Below, piece by piece: positions 1 through 51,619 of a stretch of 64,000 bases of DNA. Source of the stretch: an uncultured Bacteroides sp. Its GTDB lineage: Bacteria > Bacteroidota > Bacteroidia > Bacteroidales > Bacteroidaceae. The stretch lies in contig CANSEY010000009.1 in NCBI GenBank assembly GCA_947646015.1, positions 62,001-126,000 of the forward strand, given 5' to 3'. Below the pieces are notes generated by a model. The model saw only the letters and a program-made list of their open reading frames with translations, did no database searches and was not told where the DNA came from. Every line of letters begins with the position of its first letter. Positions within the stretch are counted from its first letter, which is position 1. Position numbers and translations under genes: made by a program.

Positions 1-990
1 GCTATGTGCTTATTTAACAGGGAAGAAAGAAAATCAATAAAATTGTTTAAGGAGTGTGACGCAGTATTTGTTAAAGGTGGAGGTTTTTTACATTCCTATG
101 GAAAAATCACAGACCCATATCAGTTTTATTATTATTTGTTTGATTATAAATTGGCTACTCATTATAAGAAGCCTGTTGTTTTGTTACCTAATTCTATAGG
201 ACCATTGAAAAATAAAATAGCGAAGAGAATGCTTGAGAAAACTTTAAATAAATGTTCTTTAGTCTATACTAGGGAATCTGTATCCCAAGAATACCTTGAT
301 AGTACAACTGTTATAAAAGCACGACAATCTTTGGATTTAGCTTTTTATCAAACGTCCGATAAAAAAGATTATGTCGGGTATTTGAAGAACAATGGGGTTG
401 ATATTAATAACAAGAACATTGCTATAACATTGCGCCCTTATAGATTTCCTGAAAGTGAAAATTCCAAGGAACATTATAATGCATATTGTCAATCAATTCG
501 TGGTTTTATAATTTTTGCAAGAGAAATGGGATTTTATGTTACTATGGTTGCTCATACGTTAGGACCAAGTGCACATGAGAATGATTGCGATGCTATAGAA
601 GATGTGTTATCGATTTGCAAAGATATAGATGGCATTACATATATTAATGATAAAAGTTTGACGTGTAGAGAATTGCAGAAAGTTTATTCTTATTTTGATT
701 GCGTTGTTGGTACTCGTTTCCATTCGGTAATTTTTGCACTTAATTCTTTGGTTCCTACAGTCGCAATTACTTATGGAGGAAACAAGGGCAAAGGTATTAT
801 GAAAGATTTGGGATTGTCAGAATATTCATTACCTATTGAAGAGGTTTCTGCAGAGAAACTTGATGCCATGTTTTCAAGCTTAATGGATAATAAAAACAAA
901 TTCAAGCAAAAAGTTAATGATTTACTTCAAAAAGCAACTGATGAAAGAAATTTGGTGTTATCAGAACTTCAAAAAGCACTAAATGTATGA
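1..990 (+). CDS. polysaccharide pyruvyl transferase family protein (5' partial)
   Basis: The protein resembles the polysaccharide pyruvyl transferase family (CsaB/WcaK-like), which adds pyruvate ketals to sugars of surface polysaccharides. Visible family features are the early KGGGFLHSYG glycine motif, LLPNSIGPL, and late on TRFHSVIFALNS followed by a GGNKGKG loop. In full-length members the GGG motif lies roughly 60-90 residues in, but here it is only about 25 residues after the first ATG at position 4, so the true start is almost certainly left of the window. The gene is AT-rich relative to the next two. It lies on the same strand as the following sugar-modifying genes, which places it in the polysaccharide locus. 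The exact acceptor sugar cannot be read from the sequence. Confidence 0.85.
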   Translation, partial: AMCLFNREERKSIKLFKECDAVFVKGGGFLHSYGKITDPYQFYYYLFDYKLATHYKKPVVLLPNSIGPLKNKIAKRMLEKTLNKCSLVYTRESVSQEYLDSTTVIKARQSLDLAFYQTSDKKDYVGYLKNNGVDINNKNIAITLRPYRFPESENSKEHYNAYCQSIRGFIIFAREMGFYVTMVAHTLGPSAHENDCDAIEDVLSICKDIDGITYINDKSLTCRELQKVYSYFDCVVGTRFHSVIFALNSLVPTVAITYGGNKGKGIMKDLGLSEYSLPIEEVSAEKLDAMFSSLMDNKNKFKQKVNDLLQKATDERNLVLSELQKALNV

Positions 991-1010
991 TTTGAAGTAT
1001 CTTTGGAATA

Positions 1011-1035
1011 TTACCATTTCTTTTTAGAATGGTAA
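1011..1035 (+). other. intergenic hairpin inside the polysaccharide operon
   Basis: TTACCATT and AATGGTAA form a perfect 8-bp stem around a T-rich 9-base loop, between the pyruvyl transferase and the sugar transferase. A TATCTTTG box (998-1005, matching TAnnTTTG) lies just before it, so this could be a weak internal promoter with a 5' hairpin, or a processing or attenuation element. There is no long U-tract after the stem, so a strong terminator is unlikely. Confidence 0.4.
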
Positions 1036-1085
1036 GAATAACTTGCTTTTATTTGTGTTTTGATAGTAAATAAATATTGTATATA

Positions 1086-1715
1086 ATGGGATATTTCATT
1101 AAGAGAACGTTTGACTTGCTTTTGGCGTTAGTGCTGTTTATTCCTTGTACGTTTGTGCTATTGGCTGGTGTGATTTTAGTGGCTATTGCTTCACCGGATT
1201 CTTCGCCTATTTTCAAGCAAGTGCGCGTCGGATATAGGAACCGTCACTTTACGTTGTATAAGCTTCGCTCGATGACAAATGAGAGAAATGAGAACGGAGA
1301 TTTGCTTCCTGATGAGGTGCGACTGAAGAAGTGGGGCATGATAGTGCGCAAGACGAATATGGATGAGCTCTTTCAAATATGGAACATTTTAACGGGTGAG
1401 ATGTCTTTTATTGGCCCTCGTCCTATTCTGCCTAAGGAAATGCTGGTTATGACTGAGACAGAGCAGATGGAGCGTCAGTCTATGCGTCCTGGCATCACGG
1501 GTTGGGAAGCTATCCATGAGGGTGAGTCGGAGAACCGCCGTCAGATGGCTGAGCAGGATTTGTACTATGTGCGTAACTGGAGCCTAAAGCTAGATTGGAT
1601 TGTGTTCTTTACGACTATCAAGTTGGTGCTTGGCTTTGGTCGTCCGGATGATTCGGTTAGAGCACCTAAGTTAGATAAAAGCGAGTTTAGAACCGATAAA
1701 GAAATAGGTGAATAA
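1086..1715 (+). CDS. undecaprenyl-phosphate sugar phosphotransferase (bacterial sugar transferase)
   Basis: This is a small monotopic phosphoglycosyl transferase (PglC/WcaJ C-terminal type, 209 aa) that moves a sugar-1-phosphate from a UDP-sugar onto undecaprenyl phosphate to start a repeat unit at the inner membrane. It begins with a single hydrophobic re-entrant segment (LLLALVLFIPCTFVLLAG), then shows FKQVRVG, LYKLRSM, the TNMDELFQIWNI region with the expected acidic residue, and GEMSFIGPRP. The start at 1086 (MGYFIKR) fits the family better than the in-frame ATG three codons earlier at 1077. The stop overlaps the next start by one base, so the two genes are co-translated. As the only initiating transferase visible, it likely primes the glycan built by this locus. 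Confidence 0.93.
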   Translation: MGYFIKRTFDLLLALVLFIPCTFVLLAGVILVAIASPDSSPIFKQVRVGYRNRHFTLYKLRSMTNERNENGDLLPDEVRLKKWGMIVRKTNMDELFQIWNILTGEMSFIGPRPILPKEMLVMTETEQMERQSMRPGITGWEAIHEGESENRRQMAEQDLYYVRNWSLKLDWIVFFTTIKLVLGFGRPDDSVRAPKLDKSEFRTDKEIGE

Positions 1716-2680
1716 TGGAGATTGGAAGTTTCATAGAAATGCAGTTCCCCAAGGGAAAGGAATATTATAACCAGTCGGTGGATATTGCTCGTCTAAATAC
1801 TGGTCGTTCTGCCATTTGGCATGCATTTCGTGTGAGTGGTGTGAAGGCAATATGGATTCCCTATTACCAGTGTGATACTGTTCGGGAGTTGTTGCTGAAG
1901 CATAGTGCTAAGGTGAAGTTCTACCATACGGACAATGATTGGAATCCAACGGATTTGGACGCTAAGAAAGACGAGGCTGTTTTGTTTGTGAACTACTACG
2001 GTATTATGTCGCACAAGCGCATGTCTGAGTTGGCAAGCCTTTCAGAACACCCTATCATCGACAACTGCCAGGGTTTTTTTTGTGAGCCTGTAGCGGGTGC
2101 ATTGAACATTTACTCTTGCCGCAAATTTGTAGGTGTGCCGGATGGCTCGTATGTGATTGGAAAGGGTGCTCACAAGTATGTAGGCGAATATCCTCAATGT
2201 TATTCTTCAGACACGGCGGCTTTTCTGTTGATGCGTATAGAGTATGGTTGTGAGGGTAAGGGATACGAAGCTCGCCATATTAACGAACAGCGTATTGATA
2301 CGGAGGACATCATGAAGATGTCAAAATTGACACGTACTATCCTTGATGGAACGGACTATGAGCAGATTAAACAAAAGAGACGTGATAACTTCGACTATAT
2401 GCACAATCGGTTGGGTGGCATCAACAAGATTAATCCGAAGCAGTATTATAATGAAACGACTATCCCTATGGTGTATCCGTTGGTAGTGGAGGACGATGGA
2501 CTTATTCAGCGTCTTTTCAAGGCTAGGCATTTCCAGGGGCACTGGTGGAGCTATATCTGTGATGAACAACCAAAAGGTAGCTTCGAGCATTGGATTTCAC
2601 GATATGTGATACCTATTACTATCGACCAGCGATATGGTACGACAGAACTTGATTATTTAATAAAAATTATTCTGAGATAA
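1715..2680 (+). CDS. DegT/DnrJ-like PLP-dependent aminotransferase fold protein (short variant)
   Basis: The 321-aa protein looks like a compact, divergent member of the DegT/DnrJ/EryC1 sugar aminotransferase superfamily. It has the N-terminal substrate loop (NTGRSAIWHAFR), a mid-protein IDNCQGFF acidic segment where the PLP-pyridine aspartate is expected, and a SCRKFVGVPDGSYV segment whose Lys is the likely Schiff-base residue. It is shorter than the usual 370-400 residues and the normal glycine-rich SxxxxKxxxxGEGG stretch is not well conserved, so activity is an inference. It overlaps its neighbours by one base on each side. Such genes sit next to an ATP-grasp gene in several Bacteroides capsule loci, as here, suggesting joint modification of an amino sugar. 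Confidence 0.7.
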   Translation: MEIGSFIEMQFPKGKEYYNQSVDIARLNTGRSAIWHAFRVSGVKAIWIPYYQCDTVRELLLKHSAKVKFYHTDNDWNPTDLDAKKDEAVLFVNYYGIMSHKRMSELASLSEHPIIDNCQGFFCEPVAGALNIYSCRKFVGVPDGSYVIGKGAHKYVGEYPQCYSSDTAAFLLMRIEYGCEGKGYEARHINEQRIDTEDIMKMSKLTRTILDGTDYEQIKQKRRDNFDYMHNRLGGINKINPKQYYNETTIPMVYPLVVEDDGLIQRLFKARHFQGHWWSYICDEQPKGSFEHWISRYVIPITIDQRYGTTELDYLIKIILR

Positions 2681-3684
2681 TGAAAACTATTAAATTAAAA
2701 TATTTAGACTTTAATAAAGGCTCCTACACAACTGAACTCGGGTATGAGTATTTTAGTGGAATTCTTAGTAAAAAATACAAAGTTGAGTTATCCGATGAAC
2801 CTGATTATGTTATTTATTCAGTGTTTGGTCAAGAGCATCTTAATGCAAAGTATGATAATTGCGTGAAAATATTCTTTACTACGGAATGCTATACTCCAAA
2901 TTTTAATCACTGCGATTACGGCATTGGGTATGATAGGTTCTCGTTTGATGACAGATATTTCCGTCTTCCATTATTCACCTTGTTTCAGTATAGAAAATTC
3001 TTTGACATGATTTTGAACAGGAAGAAGTACACTATAGATGATTTGAAGAATAAAAAAGAATTTTGCAATTATGTTGTTTCTAACTGTTTTGTTAAGGATC
3101 GAAGAACTGACATTTTTCTAAAGATGTGCGAATATAAGAAAGTGAATTCAGGAGGCCGTTATATGAACAACATTGGCGGTGCCGTGAGTGATAAATTTGC
3201 TTTTCAACAAAAACACAAATTTTCTATCGCTTTCGAGAATACTTCGTATTGTGGGTATTGCACAGAGAAAATAGTTGAAGCTTTCGCGGCGGGTACAATT
3301 CCAATTTATTGGGGAGATCCAAGAGTGGCAGAAGATTTTAATGAGAATGCTTTTGTTAATTGCCATAATTATGAGACATTAGATGATATTGTGGCAAGGG
3401 TAAAGGAAATAGATGAGAATGATAAGTTATGTTTGTCAATGCTTAATGAAAGTATTGTAAAATATAAAGATGGTGATATTGAATCTTATTTATTCCATAT
3501 TTTTGATCAACCTAAACAGTCAGCATTTAGAAGACCAAAGTCTATGTATACAGATGCTGTGGAAAAAATGGTGTCAAGACATTGGTTCTTTGAAAAGTAT
3601 ATTTATAAGTATTATAGAAAACTACTGAATCAGTTCTTTAGACTTAACAATAATACGCTATTAACTTCTAGAAGAACGAAATGA
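2680..3684 (+). CDS. glycosyltransferase family 10 (alpha-1,3-fucosyltransferase-like)
   Basis: This is a cytoplasmic GT10 enzyme, the family that transfers fucose from GDP-fucose in alpha-1,3 or 1,4 linkage. The signature region near residues 181-215 reads FSIAFENTSY, then the YCTEKIVEAF block with the invariant Thr-Glu-Lys, then GTIPIYWGDP, matching the donor-binding motif of bacterial fucosyltransferases. The length of 334 aa is normal. Its AT-rich composition differs visibly from the genes on either side, suggesting separate acquisition. It overlaps the following ATP-grasp gene by four bases (ATGA). The presence of GT10 suggests a fucosylated surface glycan, but other deoxy or modified sugar donors are possible. 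Confidence 0.9.
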   Translation: MKTIKLKYLDFNKGSYTTELGYEYFSGILSKKYKVELSDEPDYVIYSVFGQEHLNAKYDNCVKIFFTTECYTPNFNHCDYGIGYDRFSFDDRYFRLPLFTLFQYRKFFDMILNRKKYTIDDLKNKKEFCNYVVSNCFVKDRRTDIFLKMCEYKKVNSGGRYMNNIGGAVSDKFAFQQKHKFSIAFENTSYCGYCTEKIVEAFAAGTIPIYWGDPRVAEDFNENAFVNCHNYETLDDIVARVKEIDENDKLCLSMLNESIVKYKDGDIESYLFHIFDQPKQSAFRRPKSMYTDAVEKMVSRHWFFEKYIYKYYRKLLNQFFRLNNNTLLTSRRTK

Positions 3685-4832
3685 CTTACATTAACTATAT
3701 GAGCAACAGTTACAATGGTCACTTGTGCATCGTGTTTGCACTAGAACACTACAATCCGTTGAATATGATTCGCGCTTTTGGCGAGAACGGTATTAACCCT
3801 GTGTATATCTCAGTGAAGAGACGTTATGAGGTGGCTTGCCGGAGCAAGTACATTTCTAAACTGCATCGTGTGGACTCCGTGGAGGAAGGCTACAAGTTGT
3901 TGATGGAGGAGTATGGTAATATGGAGAAGAAACCATATATTGTATTCTCGGATGATAAGTCGGTGGGATACTTCGACTTGCACTATGACGAGTGGAAGGA
4001 TAAGTTCATTACCTACAACGCTGGTCGTGTCGGCAGAATCAATGAGTTTATGGACAAATACAACATCCAGCAGTTGGCAAAGAAGCATGGTTTCAACGTA
4101 TTGGATTCATATGTTATTGGCAAGGAGGATCCGCTGCCAGAGCAACTGTGGTATCCAATCATTACTAAGGATATTTCGCCTAATTCGGGTAGTTGGAAAG
4201 GGGATGTGTTTGTCTGCCAGAACGAAGAAGAACTGAAGGAGTCCATTAAGAAGATTACAAGTCCACTGATTATGATTCAGCATTTTGTGGATAAACAAAA
4301 TGAGATGGCGTTGGAGGGGTATACTATCAATCGTGGTAAGGATATGCAGATTATCACCCAAATGACTTGGAAGTATTTGATACAGGGATATTATAGTCCT
4401 TTCCACAATGTGTGTATGTTCACGGATAAGGAGATGGAGCATAAGCTTCAAGCTATGTTCGAAGAGATTGGTTTCGAGGGCGTGTTTGAGGTAGAGTTCC
4501 TTATTGACAAAGATGGCACCTTCTACTTTATGGAAACAAATTTCCGTGCGTCAGCATGGAATCCGACTTGTAAGTTTGCGGGTATGCCTTTGGATTACCT
4601 GTGGGTGAAGGGTATGGAGAACGGCTATATTGATCCTGCAGACCGGAGGGTATTTGAACCATTCACTTCGATGAGTGAGGTAATAGACTATGGCAAGCGT
4701 GTGGAAGGTGGCATGGTGAGCATTGCCGAGTGGCTTCGCGACTTTAAGGACGCCAAGTGTGTGTATATCTACGACAAGGAAGATCGTGCCCCATGGGATG
4801 CTGTAATTGAAAATTGGGAAAACTTTAAGTAA
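3681..4832 (+). CDS. ATP-grasp domain enzyme of polysaccharide locus
   Basis: This 383-aa protein has the ATP-grasp architecture: an N-terminal Rossmann-like region (residues 1-110), a lysine-bearing segment YPIITKDISPNSGSWKG that would bind the ATP phosphates, LIMIQHFVDKQNEMALEGYT contributing the hinge, and a metal-binding end EVEFLIDKDGTFYFMETNFR with conserved Glu and Asn. ATP-grasp enzymes join a carboxylate to an amine through an acyl phosphate. In a capsule locus the likely role is attaching an amino acid or similar acid to an amino sugar, but the substrate is not identifiable here. It sits between the GT10 and SDR genes and overlaps the GT10 stop by 4 nt. Confidence 0.8.
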   Translation: MTYINYMSNSYNGHLCIVFALEHYNPLNMIRAFGENGINPVYISVKRRYEVACRSKYISKLHRVDSVEEGYKLLMEEYGNMEKKPYIVFSDDKSVGYFDLHYDEWKDKFITYNAGRVGRINEFMDKYNIQQLAKKHGFNVLDSYVIGKEDPLPEQLWYPIITKDISPNSGSWKGDVFVCQNEEELKESIKKITSPLIMIQHFVDKQNEMALEGYTINRGKDMQIITQMTWKYLIQGYYSPFHNVCMFTDKEMEHKLQAMFEEIGFEGVFEVEFLIDKDGTFYFMETNFRASAWNPTCKFAGMPLDYLWVKGMENGYIDPADRRVFEPFTSMSEVIDYGKRVEGGMVSIAEWLRDFKDAKCVYIYDKEDRAPWDAVIENWENFK

Positions 4833-4845
4833 AGTTAGTGCAGAA

Positions 4846-5694
4846 ATGAAGAAAGTATTAGTTTACGGAAAGAACAGCTACATCGGTGAACATTATTATC
4901 ATGCTTTGAAAAAGTCTGGTAATAATGTAATCATCATTAATTCGTTCGAGCAGAAGCCTAAGGATATTGACTTCACAGGTATTGATACTGTTGTGAATGT
5001 GGTCGGTATTGCTCACATTAAGATTACAGATGATATGGAAGGCTTGTTCTATAAGATAAATACAGACCTTGCTGTAGAATTATGCGATGTGGCCAAGAAG
5101 GCAGGCGTAAAACAATATATCTACATGAGCAGTATGAATGTTTTTGGTGATACCACCGAAACCATTAGCTCGCGTGAGCAGGAAGGTCCGAAGAACTTCT
5201 ATGGGAAAAGCAAATATCTGGCTGATCAGAAAATTCATGCTATGGAAGCTGAGGATTTTAAGATAGCTTCTGTTCGTCCTCCTGTTGTGTATGGTAAAGG
5301 ATGCAAGGGTAATTTTGTGTTGTTACAGAAGGTGGCTTCATTGACTCCTATCTTCCCAAACTACAAGAATAAGAAAAGCATGATTTATATTGGGCATTTA
5401 GATAACTTTATATGTGAACTGGTAGCGAATGGTGAAGGCGGTTATTTTCATCCACAAAACGCAGATGTGATTTCTACGGCTGATACTATTGTTGCTATTC
5501 GCAAGGCGATGGGGAAGAAAACTCTCCTTATCCCCGGTTTCGGTTGGCTTGTAAAGATTGGAATGAAGATGATGTCAAGGGTTGAGCGTGCCTTTGCGGA
5601 TGATAATTATGATTTGGAGTTTTCTAAGTACGGTGAGAACACATACTGTAATCTTGATTTTCAAACAACTATAGACAGAACTGTAAATGGATAA
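4846..5694 (+). CDS. NAD-dependent epimerase/dehydratase (extended SDR)
   Basis: This is an extended short-chain dehydrogenase of 282 aa. It has an N-terminal nucleotide-binding loop (VLVYGKNSYIG), the MSSMNVFG strand, and a catalytic Tyr-x3-Lys (Y119 and K123 in FYGKSK). Such enzymes epimerise, dehydrate or reduce nucleotide-activated or lipid-linked sugars. The start at 4846 (MKKVLVYG) is chosen because the Rossmann strand begins there; an in-frame ATG at 4807 would overlap the ATP-grasp gene by 26 nt. The stop overlaps the downstream GT4 start by 8 nt. The specific sugar reaction (for example 4-epimerisation or 4-reduction) cannot be told from sequence alone. Confidence 0.88.
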   Translation: MKKVLVYGKNSYIGEHYYHALKKSGNNVIIINSFEQKPKDIDFTGIDTVVNVVGIAHIKITDDMEGLFYKINTDLAVELCDVAKKAGVKQYIYMSSMNVFGDTTETISSREQEGPKNFYGKSKYLADQKIHAMEAEDFKIASVRPPVVYGKGCKGNFVLLQKVASLTPIFPNYKNKKSMIYIGHLDNFICELVANGEGGYFHPQNADVISTADTIVAIRKAMGKKTLLIPGFGWLVKIGMKMMSRVERAFADDNYDLEFSKYGENTYCNLDFQTTIDRTVNG

Positions 5695-6796
5695 GAAGAA
5701 AGCACTATTCGTTGCAAATTATGATCATTTCCATATTAAATTTCATCTACATCATATCAAACATTTGGAAGAAAATGGCTATGAAGTTTCCGTTGTCGCT
5801 TCTGGTAACGATTCTTATCCGCCTTCTATTACAAAGTATGATTTAGAATTTGGAAGAACGCCAATTAACAAGCGAAATATAGTGTATTTTAAAAACTTTA
5901 GGAAACTGTTGAATACTCATTATGATCTTATCTATTTCAGTACACCTGTAATTGGGGCATACGGACGATTGGCTACAATAGGAAAACATCAGGGAAGAAT
6001 TATCTATGCTGCTCATGGATATAATTTTTATGAAGGTAATAGCAAACTGAAGAATTTTATATTCCGTACTGCAGAGAAGTTATTGTGCTATTCAACTGAT
6101 TGTACCTTCACCATGAACAAGGAGGATTATGAAGCGGCGTTGAAGTATAAGTTTCCTTGTAAGGAAATATATAACGTGGATGGCGTTGGTATTGACACCT
6201 CTGTTTTCAAAAGGAGTAATTTTGATGAGAAGACTGCTTTGCGTAATAAGCTAGGTTATGCAGATGATTTATTTATTATGATTTATCCAGCGGAGTTGAC
6301 AGAGCGCAAGAATCAAGTTCTATTGTTTGAGGTGATGGAAGAATTAGTTAAGCGGCATTCAAATGTAAAACTACTTTTGGCTGGCAGCGGTTCTATGATG
6401 GATAAATATAAGAATATTGTAGCATCTAAAGGACTGAATGGATTTGTGGAATTTTTAGGTTATCGCAATGATGTACAAGATCTTTTGCGAGCTTCAGACG
6501 TATTACTAGCCTCAAGTATCAACGAGGGGTTACCTATCAATATGATAGAGGGATTAGCATCTGGATTACCTGTAGTAGCTACAGCAACTCGTGGTCAGGT
6601 TGATTTGATTAAAGAAGGTGAAAATGGTTTTTTGTTTAGATTGAATGATTCTGATAAGGCTGTTTCTGATTTATGCAGACTGATTGAAGATAAGAATATT
6701 TATGAAGCTATGGCTACGAAGGCAGCAGAGTCCGCTAAGCAATATGATGCAAAGAATGTTGTAGGTCAGTATGATAAAATTTGGGGATTAAAATAA
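5687..6796 (+). CDS. glycosyltransferase family 4 protein
   Basis: This is a GT-B fold retaining glycosyltransferase (369 aa). The N-terminal half has the acceptor-side Rossmann features (LFVANYDHFH, FSTPVIGAYGR, AAHGYNFYEG) and the C-terminal half the donor-binding GT1/GT4 segment IMIYPAELTERKNQ followed by the E-x7-E type motif NEGLPINMIEGLASGLPVVA. It resembles capsule enzymes that add a HexNAc or hexose to a lipid-linked sugar. It overlaps the SDR gene by 8 nt and is the last closely packed gene of the polysaccharide operon; the following 830 nt hold only a gene remnant before the PIG-L gene. Confidence 0.9.
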   Translation: MDKKKALFVANYDHFHIKFHLHHIKHLEENGYEVSVVASGNDSYPPSITKYDLEFGRTPINKRNIVYFKNFRKLLNTHYDLIYFSTPVIGAYGRLATIGKHQGRIIYAAHGYNFYEGNSKLKNFIFRTAEKLLCYSTDCTFTMNKEDYEAALKYKFPCKEIYNVDGVGIDTSVFKRSNFDEKTALRNKLGYADDLFIMIYPAELTERKNQVLLFEVMEELVKRHSNVKLLLAGSGSMMDKYKNIVASKGLNGFVEFLGYRNDVQDLLRASDVLLASSINEGLPINMIEGLASGLPVVATATRGQVDLIKEGENGFLFRLNDSDKAVSDLCRLIEDKNIYEAMATKAAESAKQYDAKNVVGQYDKIWGLK

Positions 6797-6969
6797 TGTA
6801 ACTAACTAGGGCAGATACATTTCCTTTCGTTATTAAGGTCGCTTATTAGTGGATATTCTTGTTCTTATATAAATTAGATACTCTGCTTAAAACGCATTTT
6901 CCATATACGACACATGTCATATGTAATGATATTCATTATTTCTACAGTATATAGCTGCTAAAGAAGCAA

Positions 6970-7482
6970 GTGAAAATATTTGAATGTGTAAATTATTTTG
7001 CCTATACTGTTTTGTCATCAATAATGCTGCAGGGCAAATAAGTAGATTTGTATGGCTATCATCTGTAGAGCAATAATTATTCGGTAGTATCCAATAGTAT
7101 TAAGCCGGATGATATAGATGGTGTTGGGGCTTTTGGAAATTATCTTCAAAATATCAAGAATGCTTTGGTATTGCGAAAGCAGGAGATAAATGTAATAATT
7201 GATTCATTGCTGACATTATCAACTCCGTTCGTCGTGCTTAGAGATATGAATGATGTGACGGGTTCGCCAGCGTTGCGTGTTTTTAAAGATGTAAGTTTTA
7301 CCGATGCTTGATGGAAGTGTGGCACAGTTAAGATACTACAATCCATAGTCCGTTGCCGTATAAGATTGATCATATCTTGTACTCTAAAACTTCGCTTCAC
7401 CTTGAGTCTGTAAGGAAAATTAATGCAGGGGGGATTGAGTGATCATGATGCGCTCCTTGCCGAATTTTTGTTTGAAAAATAA
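6970..7482 (+). pseudogene. gutted endonuclease/exonuclease/phosphatase (EEP) family gene
   Basis: From a possible GTG at 6970 the sequence encodes a hydrophobic start (VNYFAYTVLSSIML), then stops. A second in-frame stretch from about 7090 reads IKPDDIDGVGAFGNYLQN and later FVVLRDMNDVTGSPALR, the conserved EEP block in which the usual GDMND Gly-Asp has become Arg-Asp. After a stop near 7310, another frame gives HSPLPYKIDHILYS, and a last frameshift near 7435 gives SDHDALLAEF before the stop at 7480. Order and content match a Bacteroides membrane-anchored EEP protein, but the middle third is absent and at least three disruptions are visible. It is non-functional. The upstream stretch 6797-6969 shows nothing recognisable. 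Confidence 0.75.
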
Positions 7483-7627
7483 AAAATAATATACACTATT
7501 TTATTTAATTATGCTGACTACAGCATGTGAAAAGACTAATATGCGATATTTGCCAGTAATCGGTAATGGCTTTGCTGTTCACTATAACATAATTACGAGT
7601 AAGTACTTATTATAAATAGAAAATAAC

Positions 7628-8305
7628 ATGAAATATTTGATTGTAGTGGCTCATCCTGATGATGAGGTTCTTGGCGTTAGTGCGTCAATTTGGAAATGGT
7701 CACATCAAGGTGATGAAATAGATGTGGCTATTATGTGTACTGAAGCAAAGGCGCGTGCATTCCGCCCAAAGGATAATGAATTAGAGGAGGATATGAACGG
7801 TGCGTTGAAGTATGTGGGAGTGCATCACAAGTTTGAGGCTACATTCCCGAATATAGAGATGAATACTGTGCCTCACCTTAAATTGGTACAATTCATAGAG
7901 AGTGCAATCAGGGAGAGTGAGCCAGATATTGTAATAACACACCATCCTGCGGATACGAATAATGATCATCTGATGACGTCGATGGCGTGCCAAGAGGCGG
8001 TGCGTTTGTTCCAACGTCGTCCAGAGATAAAGCGTGTGAAAGAGCTGTGGTACATGGAAGTTCCTTCTTGCACAGAGTGGGCTATTAATAGTGCTATGAG
8101 CCTATTCCGTCCGAACTGCTATGTAGAGGTAGGCAAAGAGGGGGTGGATGCTAAAATTAAGGCACTTTCGATGTATCGAGGTGTGATGCGTACGTATCCT
8201 CATCCTCGTTCAGTAGAATACATTACTGGACTTGCAGCTATGCGTGGTGGTCAATGGGGACTTCAGTATGCAGAAGCATTCGAGGTGGTATTACGTGCTT
8301 ACTAG
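7628..8305 (+). CDS. PIG-L/LmbE family deacetylase
   Basis: This is a zinc-dependent N-deacetylase of the PIG-L family (225 aa), which removes acetyl groups from N-acetylglucosaminyl substrates. The zinc motif AHPDDE is at residues 8-13 and the second metal/catalytic motif THHPADTNNDH is near residue 110. Its GC content and codon use resemble the sugar transferase and ATP-grasp genes rather than the AT-rich GT10, so it probably belonged to the same modification cassette before the EEP remnant separated it. In this setting it likely unmasks an amine on a sugar that could be the acceptor for the ATP-grasp enzyme; that link is inference. Nothing is seen in 7483-7627 beyond AT-rich leader. Confidence 0.9.
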   Translation: MKYLIVVAHPDDEVLGVSASIWKWSHQGDEIDVAIMCTEAKARAFRPKDNELEEDMNGALKYVGVHHKFEATFPNIEMNTVPHLKLVQFIESAIRESEPDIVITHHPADTNNDHLMTSMACQEAVRLFQRRPEIKRVKELWYMEVPSCTEWAINSAMSLFRPNCYVEVGKEGVDAKIKALSMYRGVMRTYPHPRSVEYITGLAAMRGGQWGLQYAEAFEVVLRAY

Positions 8306-8670
8306 AAACACAAATGTGGTAATGTACAAAGTATGATGTAGAAGGTTTATAATGTGATCTAGTAATTTATGAATTATCTGCTTTGACTGTCTGTTTGTAT
8401 TGCTTCGTATATATATCTTGCCTGTTCTGCTTTCAGAATTAATTAACGTGGTTACCAGTTTATGCATCCTGTCTATGAAGGTGGTCGTGTGACTCATTTT
8501 CAACTCGACTTCAAGTACTTGGTAGCATTGTTTAAATGTTCTGTTGTATGTACGTTATCTATAATGTGAGATTGATATTAATTGTAATACACTGTGTTAT
8601 ATGCTTTTTTGTCCGTTGTTTTTGTTGATTTTTTAGTGTAAAAAAGAGTCAGAAAACGGATATAGACAAA
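8306..8670. other. non-coding or degraded spacer
   Basis: This 365-nt stretch contains no supported gene. A short open reading stretch around 8460-8540 (starting FMHPVYEGGRVTH) has coding-like character but cannot be assigned and has neither a start signal nor a stop in context. The final 60 nt are T-rich and lead into the IS66 transposase remnant, so part of this may be the left end of that element; no terminal inverted repeat could be recognised with confidence. Confidence 0.35.
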
Positions 8671-10152
8671 ATGATTATGTAGGCTCATTATTTCCATGCT
8701 TTGGATAAGGAGTCCCAAGCAAATCAACCGCTATCTGAAATGGAACGTGGAGATTACATAGATAAGATCAATAGTTTGTCCACTGCCATCAATCAATTCA
8801 AGGAGTCCTATTCTTTGTAGAAACCCTCAATGGAGGCTTCTGAGAAGCACAATGAATCCTTGTAGTCTCAAGTAGCCCGTCTTCAATATATCATTTGTAT
8901 CATTACTGATGAAATCCGTGATTTGAGTGAAGAAGTCTCTAAGCAGTCGGATTATACCAAGCGTCACAATAAAATGTCTTACGGCAAGAAGAGTCTCTCC
9001 TTCCGTATCAGACAAGAAGACAGAAAGAGCCGTGAAGAGGATAAGATGGATGATGACGGTTCTGGTACTTTTTCCACAGGTAGTGCTGATTTTTCCTTGG
9101 ATTTGACTAAAATAAAATCAGAGAATCTCGACAACAAGCGTGGCCCCTGTACTCTCGAATTTCTTGCTGATATGGTTGTGAACAGTTGATCGCTTCATAC
9201 TCCCAATCACAGAGAGAATATTCGTATGGTATGCGCATTGATAAGTTTACTTCCAGCGAGAATAACCGTTCTAACTGGCTTAAGAGGGTTGCCGATTATT
9301 TGAAACTTTTATATGAATACATCAAACAGAGATTATTGAAGGTGAAATCCATTCTTCATATTGATGAGAGTTGGTGTAGGGTACGTATAAAATATAAGGG
9401 GGATGGTACGAAACTCGGCAGATATTTTAAAAAGTATGTTTGGGTTTTGGTCAACAAGCTAGACGGTTTGGTTTGTTTCCTTTATGACAATGATGAGAAT
9501 GACAGTCGTGGATGTCGCCCGATAGAGGAACTTTTAGGGGATTTTACAGGTTCGATTCATTCTGATGGTTACGTCGTTTATAAATATCTTGCACGTACGA
9601 ATCCTGAAAATGTCCATCTTCTTTGTTGGGCGCATGTGCGGGCGAAGTTCAAAGCCGAAGAGATAAGTAAGGATTCTGATGCCGCGTGGTTTGTAGAACA
9701 GATTGGACTTTTGTATATGGTTGAAGCAGAGAATATCAAGCTTTACCGAAGTGCTGATAAAATAAAACTTCGTCGGTTGCAGTCTGATGTGCTCTAAATC
9801 CTCACAACTTTTCATGCCAGAGCCGAAAAGATGATAAAGAATGCCAATCGCCTTTATTTGGGAGACTTGATCTTAACGGTTGGGCTGAATTACAGAACTA
9901 TCGTATGGTCGTTATACAATCGACAATATGATTGCTGAGCATGTCGTCAGACCTTTTACCGTAAACAGAAAGAATTCTTTGTTCTATAGCAGTGATGCTG
10001 GAGTGGATGTAGCTACTACATATCTTACAGTAATGGAAACAGCCCAAATGCATGGTCTGGAAGTCAGCGATTATCTGATACATGCTTTCCGTGAAATTAT
10101 GAGTGGAAATAAAGACTGTTCAACCTACGCTCCGGAAGCGTTTCTAGAATAA
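8671..10152 (+). mobile_element. IS66 family transposase (TnpC) remnant with stops and frameshifts
   Basis: The N-terminal coiled-coil-like part begins at 8671 and has three in-frame TAG stops at codons 4, 50 and 65, then continues to KIKSENLDNKRGPC and a stop at 9187. After a frame change the catalytic core follows (9186-9797): HIDESWCRVR, WVLVNKLDGLV, HSDGYVVYKYL and LLCWAHVRAKF, matching IS66 DDE transposases. A third segment (about 9885-10152) carries the C-terminal block NMIAEHVVRPFTV and KNSLFYSSDAG. At least three stops and two frame changes make it inactive, and no partner TnpA/TnpB genes are visible. It marks the accessory junction downstream of the polysaccharide locus. Confidence 0.85.
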
Positions 10153-10260
10153 TATGCAAATTAAATGTTAAATTTGAAATCGTAAGTGATGATAAATCGC
10201 TGTTTTTTAATAGGGTTAAAGTAATTGAGTGCTTAAAAAAACGGTGGTCGTGGAGGCTTT

Positions 10261-46177: not shown

Positions 46178-47227
46178 ATGAAAATAGGTGATAAAGTGCG
46201 CTTCCTCAGTGAGGTGGGCGGAGGAATCGTAAAAGGATTCCGGGGAAAAGATATTGTATTGGTGGAAGATGCTGATGGATTTGATATCCCGATGCAGATA
46301 CGCGAGTGTGTGGTGATCGATACGGATGATTATAATATGACCCGGAAGGCTGCTCCTGCGCCAAAGAAACCCGAAGAACCCGTCAAACCGGTAAAGCCTG
46401 AGATTCCGGTAGTTCGTTCGGCCGAAGTGCGGGGTGGTGATGTTTTAAATGTTTTTCTGGCTTATGTGCCCGAAGACGTGAAAGCTATCAGCAGTACTTC
46501 GTTTGAGGCTTATTTGGTAAATGACAGCAATTATTATTTGTATTATACGTATCAGAGTGCCGAAGGAAAGGCCTGGAAAACCCGTTCGCATGGACTGGTG
46601 GAACCCAATACGAAGCTTTTGCTGGAAGAGTTTACTAAGGATATGCTGAATGAAATGGAGCATGTGGCCGTTCAGTTCATTGCTTTTAAAGATGGACGGA
46701 CAGCGCCTTTGAAACCTGCGGTTTGTGTGGAGTTGCGTATCGATACGGTGAAGTTCTATAAACTGCATACATTCCGTGAGTCGGACTTCTTTGAACAGCC
46801 GGCTTTGGTTTATGATATTGTGAAAGACGATGTTCCTACCCGTCAGGTATTTGTTTCGGCTGAGGAACTGCAGTCTGTATTGATCCAGAAGAAGGAAGTG
46901 GATAAGCCTAAGTCACAACCGATTGTGAAACGTGGCGGAAAGAATGAAATTCTTGAGATAGACTTGCACATCAACGAATTGCTGGATGACACACGTGGCA
47001 TGGGGAATGCCGAGATACTGAATTACCAGTTGGATAAATTCCGTGAAGTGATGGAGAAGTACAAAACCAAACGTGAACAAAAAATAGTTTTCATTCATGG
47101 TAAAGGTGACGGAGTGCTTCGTAAAGCATTGATTGATGAATTAAAGCGAAAATATAGTAATTTCCGCTATCAGGATGCTTCATTTCAGGAATATGGTTTC
47201 GGAGCAACCATGGTGACCATTAAATGA
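46178..47227 (+). CDS. DUF2027 and Smr domain-containing protein
   Basis: This 349-aa protein has an N-terminal SH3-like DUF2027 domain ([20 protein letters not shown]), a Pro/Lys linker near residues 62-78 ([18 protein letters not shown]), a central beta domain, and a C-terminal Smr (MutS2-related) domain from about residue 257 ([10 protein letters not shown], then [15 protein letters not shown] with the catalytic HGxG). Smr domains are DNA or RNA nickases. The arrangement is common in Bacteroidota; a role in RNA turnover or ribosome rescue is plausible but unproven. It is divergent from queA. Confidence 0.9.
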
Positions 47228-47307: not shown

Positions 47308-47688
47308 TTTGTTCTCATCTCTCCACGTCGTTGGGGAAAGTCTTCACTTGTCAAAGTAGCGATGGACGAATTGATGCATGAAGATGAACAGGTTCGGAAA
47401 CCATTGAAATGCGTACCCGGCAATTGATAGATACCGATATGTCTATGTGCATGAATGATACTGAAAATCTGATCACTCCGTAAATAGCCATGTTGCGTGC
47501 CGTAGCCAATGGTGAATACCGCTTCAATTCTATTCCTGTAGTGCGGAAATATGAATTGGGAAGCGCGCAAACCATCACCCGCAACAAACGCATGCTGACC
47601 GAGCGTGATTTTATTGAGAAGGAGGGGGGAACTGTATGTGTTTTCTGATCCTGTATTCGAACTTTGGTTTAAGAGGGAGTATTGTTGA
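47308..47688 (+). pseudogene. internally deleted AAA-ATPase gene
   Basis: The fragment begins with a Walker A region, FVLISPRRWGKSSLVK, then AMDELMHEDEQVR, and then jumps to the C-terminal winged-helix part of the same family: LRAVANGEYRFNS, IPVVRKYELGSAQTI, TRNKRMLTERDFIE, and after a frame change FSDPVFELWFKREYC before the stop at 47686. It also has an in-frame TAA near 47480. About two-thirds of a typical 370-380 aa ATPase is missing, including Walker B. It belongs to the same broad family as the intact ATPase 540 nt downstream. Confidence 0.72.
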
Positions 47689-47855
47689 GCTAAATTATAT
47701 GGGAAAACCGGCTGTTTAACAATGTTAACGTCAATTTCCGTTCATTTTATTCTTGTGTGCAAATAACAAATCTTTTGCATTTAAAACACTTGTTATTTGC
47801 ATCCAAAGAACAAGCTTTAACACTGTGTTAAGACAGTCTGTTCCTGATCGGGAGT

Positions 47856-48191
47856 TTGATTCTTCAAACGAAAGATTTCAGCTGGCTTGTGATGCTTACT
47901 GTATATGGAGTGGATAGTGTGTTGACAATCATACACCGGTTGTTGCTACATGAAAATATTGGTTTGCCTCACCGGAAACATTTGTATCAGATCATGGTTA
48001 ATGAATTGAGAATACCGCACGTGGTGGTATCGTTGGTGTATATGATTGTGCAAATTGTGATTATCATCGGGTATTTATATTGCCGGGGTTATGGTGATTG
48101 GTATTTATTGGGCTGTATCCTTTTGCTGAGTGGAATATATATTGTTCTTATGCGCAAATATTTTCACTTGCATCTTTTACCTAAAAGATAA
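47856..48191 (+). pseudogene. C-terminal fragment of a MraY/WecA-like GlcNAc-1-P transferase
   Basis: The 111-aa stretch, ILQTKDFSWLVMLTVYGVDS, VLTIIHRLLLHENIGLPHRKH and PHVVVSLVYMIVQIVII, matches the last third of the polytopic polyprenyl-phosphate GlcNAc-1-phosphate transferases found at the end of Bacteroides capsule loci; HRLLLHENIGLPHRKH is the conserved cytosolic loop with catalytic-site His residues. There is no N-terminal part (the ORF preceding is non-coding), so it is a truncated relic. Its presence suggests that a polysaccharide locus or part of one was once here. Confidence 0.78.
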
Positions 48192-48231: not shown

Positions 48232-49362
48232 ATGGCTGTTATTAATCCTTTTGTAGTTGGAGGATACGTTTCTCCTCGTTATTTTTGTGATAGAGTTGCT
48301 GAAACAGAAAACTTGATCCGTAACTTGATAAATGGGAGAAATGTGGCTCTTGTTTCAACTCGCCGAATGGGAAAAACGGGATTGATAAGGCATTGTTTTT
48401 ATCAGCCTTTGATTAAAGAAGGCTATTATACTTTCTTTATTGATATATATGCGACTTCAAGTTTGAAAGAGTTTGTTTTTGCTTTGGGTAAAGGGATTTT
48501 TGAGAAGTTAAAGCCCCAGGGGAATAAATTCATAGATCGTTTCTTTTCTATAATTACCTCTTTAAGGATTGGATTTAAATTAGATAGTATTACAGGAGAA
48601 CCGATTTTAGAACTTGGTTTGGGAGATATTCATGCTCCTGAAACTACTTTAGAAGAAATCTTTATCTATCTGGAGCAGGCAGACAAGCCTTGTATTGTAG
48701 CAATAGATGAATTTCAGCAAATCAGTTCATATCCGGAGAAAAATCTGGAAGCTATTTTAAGGACTAAAGTTCAGCATTGCAGTAACTCTAATTTTGTTTT
48801 TGCAGGAAGTCAGAGGCATATAATGATGAATATATTCAACAGTCCTTCCAGGCCATTTTATCAAAGCGTGAGTATGATGCACTTAGGAGCAATTCCTTTG
48901 GAGGTATATAAACCTTTTGTGAAGGGATTGTTTGAGGAGAATGGTAAGAAAGTGACAGATCAATTGGTAGAGAATGTATATACCCTGTTTGATGGGCACA
49001 CTTGGTATGTGCAGTTAATGTTGAATGAACTTTTTATTTTGACAGACAAAAAGGGTATCTGTGATGTACCTATGATAAATCTGGCACTAAACAATATAAT
49101 TGCTACACAAGACTTTACTTTTCAAGAAATATTTTCTCGTCTTCCGGAAAAGCAAAAAGAGATAATGATTGCCATTGCCAAGGAGCAGAAAGCAAAAGGA
49201 GTTACTTCTGCTGCATTTATTAAAAAATATCGGTTGACTTCTGCCAGTTCGGTGCAGTCGGGGTTGAAGGGTTTACTGGAAAAAGACATGTTGACTCAGG
49301 AGTCTGGAGGGTATCAGGTGTATGATAGACTTTTCAATATCTGGCTTAGGAGGAATTACTGA
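48232..49362 (+). CDS. AAA ATPase (ATPase_2/archaeal-type STAND-like)
   Basis: This 376-aa P-loop ATPase has INPFVVGGYVSPRYFCDR at the N-terminus, Walker A STRRMGKTGLIRH (about residues 44-56), Walker B CIVAIDEFQQI (near 160), a sensor segment FVFAGSQRHIM, and a C-terminal winged-helix part ending YQVYDRLFNIWLRRNY. The family is widespread in Bacteroides, of unknown biological role. The last 18 codons lie in an 87-bp sequence that is repeated after the following TA module, so the insertion kept this gene intact. Confidence 0.85.
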   Translation: MAVINPFVVGGYVSPRYFCDRVAETENLIRNLINGRNVALVSTRRMGKTGLIRHCFYQPLIKEGYYTFFIDIYATSSLKEFVFALGKGIFEKLKPQGNKFIDRFFSIITSLRIGFKLDSITGEPILELGLGDIHAPETTLEEIFIYLEQADKPCIVAIDEFQQISSYPEKNLEAILRTKVQHCSNSNFVFAGSQRHIMMNIFNSPSRPFYQSVSMMHLGAIPLEVYKPFVKGLFEENGKKVTDQLVENVYTLFDGHTWYVQLMLNELFILTDKKGICDVPMINLALNNIIATQDFTFQEIFSRLPEKQKEIMIAIAKEQKAKGVTSAAFIKKYRLTSASSVQSGLKGLLEKDMLTQESGGYQVYDRLFNIWLRRNY

Positions 49363-49393
49363 TTTAACCGGAAACATCAGTGTTAACCATCTT
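49307..49393 (+). repeat. 87-bp direct repeat, left copy
   Basis: The sequence covers the last 18 codons and stop of the AAA ATPase plus 31 nt of its tail. It is identical to 51092-51178 except for one G/A difference at 49380. It marks the left boundary of the TA cassette. Confidence 0.95.
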
Positions 49394-49578
49394 CGCGGAA
49401 GAGGACAGATTTGAAATAATCAACTTGGAGGATGGACAGGGACGTATTGAGAATAAATGCAGCATATGAATTGAATTAAATGGTTTGCCAATCATTTATA
49501 TACTAATAATTTTGAAAAGTTGTTTTTCACGAAACAATATATCCTTTCTTATTGTTTTTTTGAGAAATGATATTGTAT

Positions 49579-49598
49579 AATTATCAAATTTGATAATT
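49579..49598. promoter_or_regulatory. 20-bp palindrome upstream of the TA module (predicted operator)
   Basis: AATTATCAAATTTGATAATT is a perfect 20-bp palindrome 85 nt before higB. A second half-site, ATTATCAAA (49614-49622), overlaps the expected -33 region of the promoter at 49637. Such sites are typical of autoregulation by the HTH antitoxin. The rest of 49394-49663 shows no gene. Confidence 0.6.
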
Positions 49599-49636
49599 TA
49601 TTTTATGATATATATTATCAAAAAGAATAAAATCCT

Positions 49637-49644
49637 TATCTTTG
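49637..49644 (+). promoter_or_regulatory. -7 promoter box of the TA module
   Basis: TATCTTTG matches TAnnTTTG and lies 19 nt before the higB start. Confidence 0.6.
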
Positions 49645-49663
49645 CAGAAAGATAACGAATTGC

Positions 49664-49987
49664 ATGAATATCTATACAGAAGATGAAGCACTAATTGAGT
49701 TGTTGGAAGAGGGTTGCACCAACGACAAAAGATACAAGAGACTTCCTAAGGATGTAATCAAAGGTTATATAAAAGCATATAATCATTTAAAAGCAGCCAC
49801 AAGAATAGAAGATTTATTCAGAATCGGAAGTCTGCATTATGAACGATTGAAAGGAGGCTTAAAAGACTTTGAATCGGTTAGATGTACCGGACGGTGGAGA
49901 TTAATATTTCAAAGCTCCACAATAGACGGTTCATTGATAATTACTGAAATAGAATTAATAGAAATATCCAACCATTATGGCGACTAA
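49664..49987 (+). CDS. higB: HigB/RelE-type toxin
   Basis: This 107-aa basic protein matches the HigB/ParE-RelE toxin fold. It has a long N-terminal helix region, LFRIGSLHYERLKGGLKDFESVR, then RCTGRWRLIFQ, and a C-terminal beta strand ITEIELIEISNHYGD. In this family, toxins cleave ribosome-bound mRNA. It overlaps its antitoxin by 11 nt, toxin first as in all higBA loci. Its composition is much more AT-rich than the housekeeping genes around, suggesting transfer. Confidence 0.88.
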   Translation: MNIYTEDEALIELLEEGCTNDKRYKRLPKDVIKGYIKAYNHLKAATRIEDLFRIGSLHYERLKGGLKDFESVRCTGRWRLIFQSSTIDGSLIITEIELIEISNHYGD

Positions 49988-51092
49988 AATTAAATTAAAC
50001 GATTGCGTACCTTGTATAGCCATTCATCCGGGTGAAATCATTAAGGATGAATTGGATGCAAGAGAAATGAAGCAAAAAGAGTTGGCTTCACTTATGAGCA
50101 TGCCTACTTCAGTACTCAATGATATTATAAAGGGACGTCGTGCTGTAACTCCTGAAGTTGCTGTTTTGCTACAGGAAATTTTAGGAATAGATGCTTCATA
50201 TTGGTTATCATTACAAAATCAATATGATATAGACCGAGCAAATATAAATAAGAAAATAGTAGAACGAAAAAAGAATATTGAGATATGGAAAGTAATTTCT
50301 CAATATTGTTCTGTTAAATATTTCGAGAAATTAAATGTTATTGGAACGAAAATATCAGAAAACATAAAAATAATATATTCAATTTTCGGTGTAACTTCAG
50401 TTGAAGAACTAATAGCTTCGTTTTCTTCAGAAAAGGAACTTTCTTATTTTAAGAAATCTGAACGGTTAAAGAGTGACCCCATTAACATTTTCTCATGGAA
50501 ACATTTTGCTTTCTATCAAAGTTCACAAATGCTGGATGTTGCCGATTTTGATGAAAACAGTTTAGAAAGGCTTGTGCAGGAATTGAATCAAATGTTTGTT
50601 GTAAACATAAACACTATTGATAAGACAAAAGAAATTCTATCACGATATGGAATTAAATTTATCATAGTGCCTAAATTCGACAAGACACCGATTGATGGAT
50701 TTTCTTTTTGGCAAGGAAAAAATCCAACCATTGTATTAACATTACGATTAAACAAAATTGATAATTATGCTTTCGCTTTATTGCATGAGATATACCATGT
50801 TTATATGCATCTTTTCAACAATAGAGAACAGAAATATATTGCCATAGAAGGAGCTGAAATAAATAAATGCGAGGAAGAAGCAAATAAATTCGCCAAGTGT
50901 TCTTTAATTGGTAAAGACTTATGGAATACATTCCTCAAACAACATTCCATGATATCTCCACATGCAATGCAAATGAAAATAAAACAATTTGCTCATCAAC
51001 ATAATATCAATGAGGCTATTGTTTTAGGATTTTATCAGCATGATATTAATTTGTATTCTATTAAAAGCTCAATATCAAGAGAGATAAAATAG
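49977..51092 (+). CDS. higA: HigA-type antitoxin fused to an ImmA/IrrE metallopeptidase domain
   Basis: This 371-aa protein joins an N-terminal XRE HTH of the HigA type (IHPGEIIKDELDAREMKQKELASLM, then NDIIKGRRAVTPEVAVLLQ, residues 16-70) to a C-terminal ImmA/IrrE-like zinc peptidase domain, HEIYHVYMH at 270-278 with downstream EEEANKFA supplying the third ligand. HigA antitoxins are usually about 90-140 aa, so most of this protein is the extra domain and linker. The stop codon's last base is the first base of the right 87-bp repeat. It probably represses its own promoter and neutralises HigB; the peptidase role is unknown. Confidence 0.88.
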   Translation: MATKIKLNDCVPCIAIHPGEIIKDELDAREMKQKELASLMSMPTSVLNDIIKGRRAVTPEVAVLLQEILGIDASYWLSLQNQYDIDRANINKKIVERKKNIEIWKVISQYCSVKYFEKLNVIGTKISENIKIIYSIFGVTSVEELIASFSSEKELSYFKKSERLKSDPINIFSWKHFAFYQSSQMLDVADFDENSLERLVQELNQMFVVNINTIDKTKEILSRYGIKFIIVPKFDKTPIDGFSFWQGKNPTIVLTLRLNKIDNYAFALLHEIYHVYMHLFNNREQKYIAIEGAEINKCEEEANKFAKCSLIGKDLWNTFLKQHSMISPHAMQMKIKQFAHQHNINEAIVLGFYQHDINLYSIKSSISREIK

Positions 51093-51178
51093 AGGGTATC
51101 AGGTGTATGATAGACTTTTCAATATCTGGCTTAGGAGGAATTACTGATTTAACCGGAAACATCAATGTTAACCATCTT
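51092..51178 (+). repeat. 87-bp direct repeat, right copy
   Basis: This is a copy of 49307-49393 with one base change (A at 51165). It is out of context here, as an orphan of the ATPase 3' end directly after the antitoxin stop codon. Confidence 0.95.
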
Positions 51179-51200
51179 TGTCAGTGATTGGCATAAAAAT

Positions 51201-51240
51201 AAAAGACCGATGTCAGTTCATTCGACGACACCGGTCTTTT
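51201..51240. terminator. bidirectional terminator after the TA module
   Basis: AAAAGACCGATGTC and GACACCGGTCTTTT form a 14-bp stem (one mismatch) with a 12-nt loop. It has A-rich and T-rich flanks, so it can also end transcription of the secreted-protein gene on the other strand. Confidence 0.75.
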
Positions 51241-51265
51241 ATCCTTTTATTCATCAATCAAGTTC

Positions 51266-51619
51266 CTACTTTACTTCGATGCCTTTGTTCTTCAAAGTCA
51301 TGTTCAATATTGTAGTATACTTAGTGTACTGAGCATCTGTCAACGTCTTTTTCATCAATTTCAGATTGCCGTAAACAGCGTTACGAACCATGGTATCCTT
51401 GTTCTTTTTCGCAGTGGTGGCTCTTCCCATCTGTTCGTCAAAGTAGTTGCAAATGTTGGCTACTTCTTCTGCCTGTACAGAAGATAAATTCAGGTATTTA
51501 CCCAATTTATTCACATTGATGTTACCTTCCCATTTTGCAACTGTAGGTTGATTGCCTGCTGCAAATGTAGTAGCAACAAGGCATAGCGCTGCCACTAATG
51601 TTAATCCTAATCTTTTCAT
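51266..51619 (-). CDS. small secreted protein of unknown function
   Basis: The 117-aa protein has a classical signal peptide (LGLTLVAALCLVATTFAAG) and a mostly helical mature part with LGKYLNLSSVQAEEVANICNYFDEQMGRA and LMKKTLTDAQYTKYTTILNMTL, which recall Spy/CpxP-like or DUF4890-type periplasmic helical proteins, although no LTxxQ repeat is exact. It is not identified further. It is transcribed alone with a leader of about 115 nt from the TATATTTG box. Confidence 0.75.
   Translation of the reverse strand: MKRLGLTLVAALCLVATTFAAGNQPTVAKWEGNINVNKLGKYLNLSSVQAEEVANICNYFDEQMGRATTAKKNKDTMVRNAVYGNLKLMKKTLTDAQYTKYTTILNMTLKNKGIEVK

Follow-up and report, generated by a model that had tools for sequence, protein, structure and literature searches.

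A HigB/HigA-ImmA module behind a Bacteroides ATPase gene: probable illegitimate capture of a mobile-element passenger with duplication of the target

In the window analysed here, a stretch of 64,000 nucleotides from an uncultured Bacteroides sp., a HigB/HigA-ImmA toxin-antitoxin module lies behind an intact AAA ATPase gene and is enclosed by two direct copies of the end of that gene. The empty site, the composite make-up of the insert, three junctions and the association of related modules with integrases were all seen directly. We infer that one event would account for the arrangement, and the explanation we regard as probable is a single illegitimate capture, linked to a break or to replication, of a passenger of a mobile element, accompanied by duplication of the target. 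The event is apparently an isolated repair accident of a generally known kind and not a new self-moving cassette. An empty site, relatives that resemble donors and three junctions that can be read make it a well-resolved snapshot of a toxin-antitoxin passenger leaving an integrating element and settling in the chromosome, which is one route to solitary chromosomal toxin-antitoxin genes; it is also a warning against taking every toxin-antitoxin pair between repeats for a mobile cassette.

The duplicated gene end and the empty site

The target gene (48232–49362, forward strand) encodes an AAA ATPase of the ATPase_2 / AAA_14 type (Pfam PF01637, E = 4.1e-8; PF13173, E = 2.3e-6). A repeat search returned two direct copies of 87 nt, at 49307–49393 and 51092–51178, with a spacing of 1785, 86 of 87 positions identical (99%) and a longest exact stretch of 73 bp; the 64-kb window holds no other exact direct repeat of at least 25 bp. 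The left copy comprises the final 56 nt of the ATPase gene, which closes with its stop codon at 49362, and a further 31 nt; the right copy begins on the third base of the antitoxin stop codon (51092). The duplication with its one mismatch, and this placement of both copies, had been described in the initial annotation and are confirmed. Searched against its own genome, the 87-mer matched the two copies (E = 1.2e-39 and 3.7e-38) and nothing else. The single substitution, carried by the right copy (forward strand), is uninformative given a background divergence of 0.35–1%.

The initial annotation had suggested a search for an empty site in which the 87 bp occur once, and such a site exists. In a sample of 158 genomes of the genus, one per species, the 87-mer is present in two, the window's own (two copies) and a relative designated G017 (one copy, 100%), at the same locus in both. 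G017 is collinear with the window and 99.3–99.5% identical to it on both flanks, and at this place it has the ATPase gene and lacks the toxin-antitoxin genes. The ATPase has 377 codons including the stop in both genomes and the two alleles differ by one amino acid, which bears out the earlier claim that the insertion lies at the gene's 3' end and left the gene intact. The site in G017 reads CATCTTCGCGGCTGTCAG. The left side of the window reads CATCTTCGCGG, followed by the insert, and the right side reads CATCTT and then TGTCAG. Identity with the empty site thus continues for 5 nt beyond the left repeat, so that the native copy extends over 49307–49398 (forward strand) up to the break point, CGCGG^C. 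After the right copy, at the outer junction (51178/51179), the next six bases of the empty site, CGCGGC, are missing. These features had escaped the initial annotation.

Two sister species, G018 and G023, are about 88% identical over the right flank and read CTTCGCGGTTGTC at the site; together with G017 they retain CTTCGCGG(C/T)TGTC. Since all three carry CGCGG(C/T), the single-copy state with CGCGG is ancestral. Moreover, recombination between the repeats of the window would leave CATCTT-TGTC, a 6-bp scar, and G017 is therefore not an excision product. We take the G017 site, from its sequence, to be the original empty state that preceded the insertion.

In the segments that align with G017, about 52 kb in all (window 10238–64000 minus the insert, positions 1–10237 having no match in the G017 stretches fetched), seven indels were counted, six of them of 1–2 bp and the seventh the 6-bp CGCGGC loss. 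The lost bases straddle the break point, five to its left and one to its right. As the only indel longer than 2 bp, located exactly at the break point, this loss is hard to see as independent of the insertion. The other large difference in the aligned segments is a stretch of 3.7 kb that is absent from the window at 47835, 1.5 kb upstream; its left part is shared by G017 and G018, and a long repeat at its ends is not visible. We count this absence among the points in favour of an illegitimate capture. As a consequence, a family-4 glycosyltransferase (318 aa in G017) is reduced in the window to a 111-aa ORF, its last third (47835–48191). Positions 47360–47690 resemble, by eye, a remnant of another ATPase C-terminal end (DPVFELWFKREY), and 47397–47835 also occurs in both sister species at 94%. 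On the other side of the insert, about 25 bp from the right junction, the strong inverted repeat at 51203–51244, which has T-runs on either strand, is apparently the terminator of the gene at 51266–51619. A hairpin at the break point was considered and set aside as evidence, since the longest stem in the fold of the empty site (z = -3.0) is this downstream terminator.

Composition of the insert, its junctions and the proposed event

The insert is composite and consists, from left to right, of a scrap, 52 bp long, from a DDE transposase gene, the HigB/HigA-ImmA module with its upstream region and the 87-bp copy. The scrap (49397–49448, forward strand) comes from the interior of the gene and is 92% identical to G003:C1:1680646-1680697, inside an 828-bp ORF of another genome of the genus (PF01609, DDE_Tnp_1, E = 2.9e-9). 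This transposase gene matches 22 of the 158 genus genomes (E up to 0.001), mostly over part of its length, and its 52-bp part is closest in G003; within the window's own genome its sole match beyond the scrap is a 91-bp stretch at 74%, with no intact copy. The earlier description of the insert as free of integrase and transposase holds, in that its ORFs and their Pfam matches include no integrase or working transposase gene, although the scrap had been overlooked. None of the four inverted repeats of at least 20 nt listed for the window sits at the insert ends. An IS element or composite transposon was rejected considering that the insert has only 52 bp of a transposase gene, an 87-bp duplication and none of these inverted repeats at its ends.

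The next part of the insert, from 49450 to 51093, is 97% identical over 1644 bp to Bacteroides faecichinchillae JCM 17102. This match includes the region upstream of the module (49450–49663, forward strand), a putative promoter region in which the 200 nt before higB align without gaps and with 183 identities, and in which a perfect 20-bp palindrome, AATTATCAAATTTGATAATT (49579–49598), is a possible operator for the HTH antitoxin. The first gene (49664–49987, forward strand) encodes a HigB-like (RelE-like) toxin of 107 aa (PF05015, E = 1.5e-7; 99% to B. faecichinchillae) that has no PADLOC match at 0.01. The second (49977–51092, forward strand) encodes a HigA antitoxin of 371 aa fused to an ImmA/IrrE (M78) peptidase domain (TIGR02607, E = 2.9e-18; PF01381; PF06114), with a match to PADLOC PD-Lambda-2_B over residues 12–367 (E = 5.2e-36). 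The two genes overlap at 49977–49987, with the toxin first and the antitoxin second, as in HigBA type II toxin-antitoxin systems. Codon differences from B. faecichinchillae are 17 silent and 5 changing among 371 for HigA, and 5 and 1, respectively, among 107 for HigB; being mostly silent, they indicate that both copies of the module look maintained. HigB and HigA-ImmA thus look intact and maintained, and they form a predicted toxin-antitoxin pair that would presumably be active.

Three of the junctions can be resolved. At the left junction the host and the transposase scrap have 2 bp in common (GG, 49397–49398), the module and the ATPase copy also share 2 bp (GA, 51092–51093), and the sources have 0 bp of overlap at the right outer junction. 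The junction between scrap and module is not resolvable, and an earlier linkage of these two pieces is conceivable, since no donor with both joined was found.

We propose that, in an ancestor resembling G017, the chromosome suffered an interruption at CGCGG^C, a point 36 bp past the stop codon of the ATPase gene. About 50 bp of a transposase gene would have been joined there, followed by the complete module, which would have been taken, as a copy or by cutting, from an integrative element. The local 87 bp would then have been added a second time and connected back to the chromosome, at the cost of six bases spanning the original break point. One molecular route that we infer for these steps is microhomology-guided template switching at a broken fork, in which a first switch at an obstacle would be followed by a return 87 bp upstream and a skip of the obstacle; microhomology-mediated break-induced replication is a published mechanism (PMC2621351). 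End-joining of sister chromosomes that had broken unequally, with capture of DNA between them, would also fit. Either way, the module, now free of an integrase, should be stable and lost mainly by recombination between the repeats. The initial annotation had raised the replacement of a longer tandem duplication, which is not needed, and a sign supporting it was not seen.

Another origin would have the locus acquired by homologous recombination with a donor strain in which ATPase, scrap and module were already in a row; one end would stem from a crossover within the ATPase gene, and the other would have been joined 87 bp upstream through a 2-bp microhomology. A crossover at one end combined with a microhomology join at the other is known as homology-facilitated illegitimate recombination. 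Here one illegitimate join would account for the 87-bp duplication, and GA is indeed common to both sides of the module/ATPase junction. Such a locus was however found neither among the 158 genus genomes nor among 399 sampled genomes of the family (each species represented by one genome, and each genome by its two scored candidates), and the loss of the six bases straddling the break point, beyond the right copy, is left unexplained; we consider this origin unlikely.

The insertion is carried by one genome only, whose assembly has 100 contigs and an estimated completeness of 74.7%, which makes absences in this genome weak and raises the concern of a chimera produced during assembly or amplification. 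Fragmentation and low completeness speak for such an artefact, but the scrap and the antitoxin gene each match only this place in the genome, junction overlaps of 0–2 bp are too short for a repeat-driven mis-assembly, and most differences between the module and its nearest relative are silent. A chimera is in our judgement very improbable.

Related modules, integrative elements and the genomic slot

The closest relatives of the module are found in integrative surroundings. In B. faecichinchillae (97% DNA identity to the window) the module has a tyrosine integrase on one side and, on the other, a sequence that resembles, by eye, the 3' end of a tRNA. In G390, an inferred Phocaeicola (87% identity), integrase and module form a 4.5-kb unit bounded by perfect 46-bp direct repeats of this tRNA-end-like att sequence; this is a very small integrase-plus-addiction element. 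Within it (L088, 6760–11291) are the integrase, a 213-aa protein with no Pfam or PADLOC match and the toxin-antitoxin pair. In Phocaeicola faecalis the module is located between 212-bp repeats (94%) that start inside the tRNA-end-like att sequence. The module there (L063, 5172–7454) has no integrase of its own and sits at an att-like sequence adjoining another integrase, a locus that resembles a cis-mobilisable remnant. ARAGORN detected no whole tRNA in the four stretches searched (L062, L063, L088 and L089). Unlike in the G390 and B. faecichinchillae elements, the module in the window stands alone at another site, without integrase and without that att sequence.

Homologues of HigA (E of 1e-30 or better) occur in 11 of the 158 genus genomes, the window's own included, which makes this a patchy family. 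The phage search returned one unannotated 4.3-kb faecal scaffold filed as phage, which ends inside higB and carries next to it a 407-aa ORF 88% identical to the B. faecichinchillae integrase. A phage origin was rejected, the viral contigs containing neither a HigA relative nor a match to a degenerate pattern for the transposase scrap, as was a plasmid origin, for which the matches were two Tenacibaculum records covering 14% of the insert.

We examined bracketing by direct repeats at 13 loci of the toxin-antitoxin family, the window included, and found it at four. The fractions of equal-size random brackets in the same stretches that were also bracketed were 0.028 for the window, 0.086 for L063, 0.228 for L088 and 0.484 for L126, so that L126 is uninformative and L088 only partly informative. 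The nine unbracketed loci are L062 and eight distant homologues, among which the modules of L121 and L127 lie near a contig end, where a left repeat could be missed. Direct-repeat bracketing as a general rule of the family was rejected on these counts and random fractions. Among the three near relatives, two are bracketed (L063 and L088, not L062, a 10-kb contig), a finding that goes against illegitimate capture; the end of the module exactly at the stop codon could likewise be a hint of a defined cassette end.

These observations bear on whether the 87-bp repeats could be the att sites of an element that targeted the ATPase 3' end by site-specific insertion and later lost its integrase. A gene 3' end left intact after insertion is typical of tyrosine-integrase elements. 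The intact target gene end, the occurrence of the close module relatives as passengers beside an integrase and an att sequence, and the bracketing of two of the three near relatives are in line with this origin. Against it, the insert has no integrase, and that of B. faecichinchillae matches only 68 bp at 76% in the window's own, incompletely assembled genome; the 46-bp att sequence of the relatives, searched with its flanks, matches the 87-mer only at chance level, over 8 to 14 bp; the 87-mer occurs in two of the 158 genus genomes, at this locus only; and a crossover in a shared core yields neither a 6-bp loss at one end nor a transposase scrap at the other. With the required integrase, shared core and clean ends all unseen, this route is disfavoured and appears improbable.

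The same distribution of the 87-mer argues against the suggestion of the initial annotation that a cassette moves by homology with the 3' end of its target, as does the finding that close relatives of the module have a tyrosine integrase and another att sequence as neighbours. A mobile cassette with the 87 bp as homing sequence was rejected, given the single locus and an exact 43-base piece that has no match in viral contigs. The reading as a minimal mobile cassette is not supported.

The site itself lies in a slot between convergent genes, Smr/DUF2027 (46178–47227) and the 117-aa ORF (51266–51619), which was surveyed in 20 further genomes out of the 98 with the right-hand gene. The slot is 74–112 bp wide in 13 of the 20 and 1.65–12.2 kb in six, the left gene not being found in the stretch in the remaining one; in G017 it spans 5.97 kb. 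Five ORFs scanned from two wider slots (a response regulator, a histidine kinase, a DUF5723 protein, a protein kinase and a PP2C phosphatase) are, from these assignments, not mobile genes. In both sister species the slot contains HipA and a decayed integrase with 91–93% DNA identity to that of the B. faecichinchillae element, which indicates that relatives of this element left pieces there in two lineages. An att46 match above chance was absent from these slots, and a Pfam search with a 98-aa piece of the integrase remnant gave no match. The G018 slot (L057, 1286–5616) encodes a cyclic-nucleotide-binding regulator, a GNAT acetyltransferase, the decayed tyrosine integrase and an HTH protein followed by HipA; the integrase remnant and HipA recur in G023 (L058).

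That two sister species keep the decayed integrase in the same slot would be in keeping with a clade that once carried an integrase-plus-module element, and cells that lost it may have survived only with the module pasted elsewhere. If this were true, rare illegitimate insertions of the module alone would be selected at once, and the pair would "move" without a recombinase because its loss kills. We rate such capture enforced by addiction as a minor possibility beside the simple repair accident.

Comparison with known systems

The module shares with the PD-lambda-2 anti-phage system its gene order, a HigB-like gene first and a HigA-peptidase gene second (excerpts of PMC9519451). According to the same excerpts, a third gene is required for defence (Vassallo et al., 2022). 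Unlike in PD-lambda-2, component C was not found next to the window module: the two ORFs that follow it, of 55 aa (51165–51332, forward strand) and 117 aa (51266–51619, reverse strand), have no PADLOC hit up to E = 1.

In the literature searched, the closest published idea for the insert is that of insertion with long target duplication, which was put forward for restriction-modification genes (Nobusato et al., 2000, as described in PMC3031569). The accessible text of PMC3031569 also reports plasmid insertion by crossing-over at 1–3 bp of identity. For a toxin-antitoxin module inserted with a long target duplication, no description was found in the consulted parts of the literature searched, which included PMC3031569, PMC3874152 and PMC9519451. 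As far as these accounts go, the resemblance lies in how the insertion works: an addiction-type gene complex without transposase or integrase stands between direct copies of its target, a related genome (here G017, with a single copy) has the empty site, and later excision or amplification of the insert through the repeats would be possible. The window insert differs in being a type II toxin-antitoxin module instead of a restriction-modification gene complex, in a second copy that is not clean, as it lacks six bases at the break point, and in its transposase scrap. The unclean right copy and the type of gene place it outside the strict class, and the six-base loss together with the transposase scrap points to a messy repair event.
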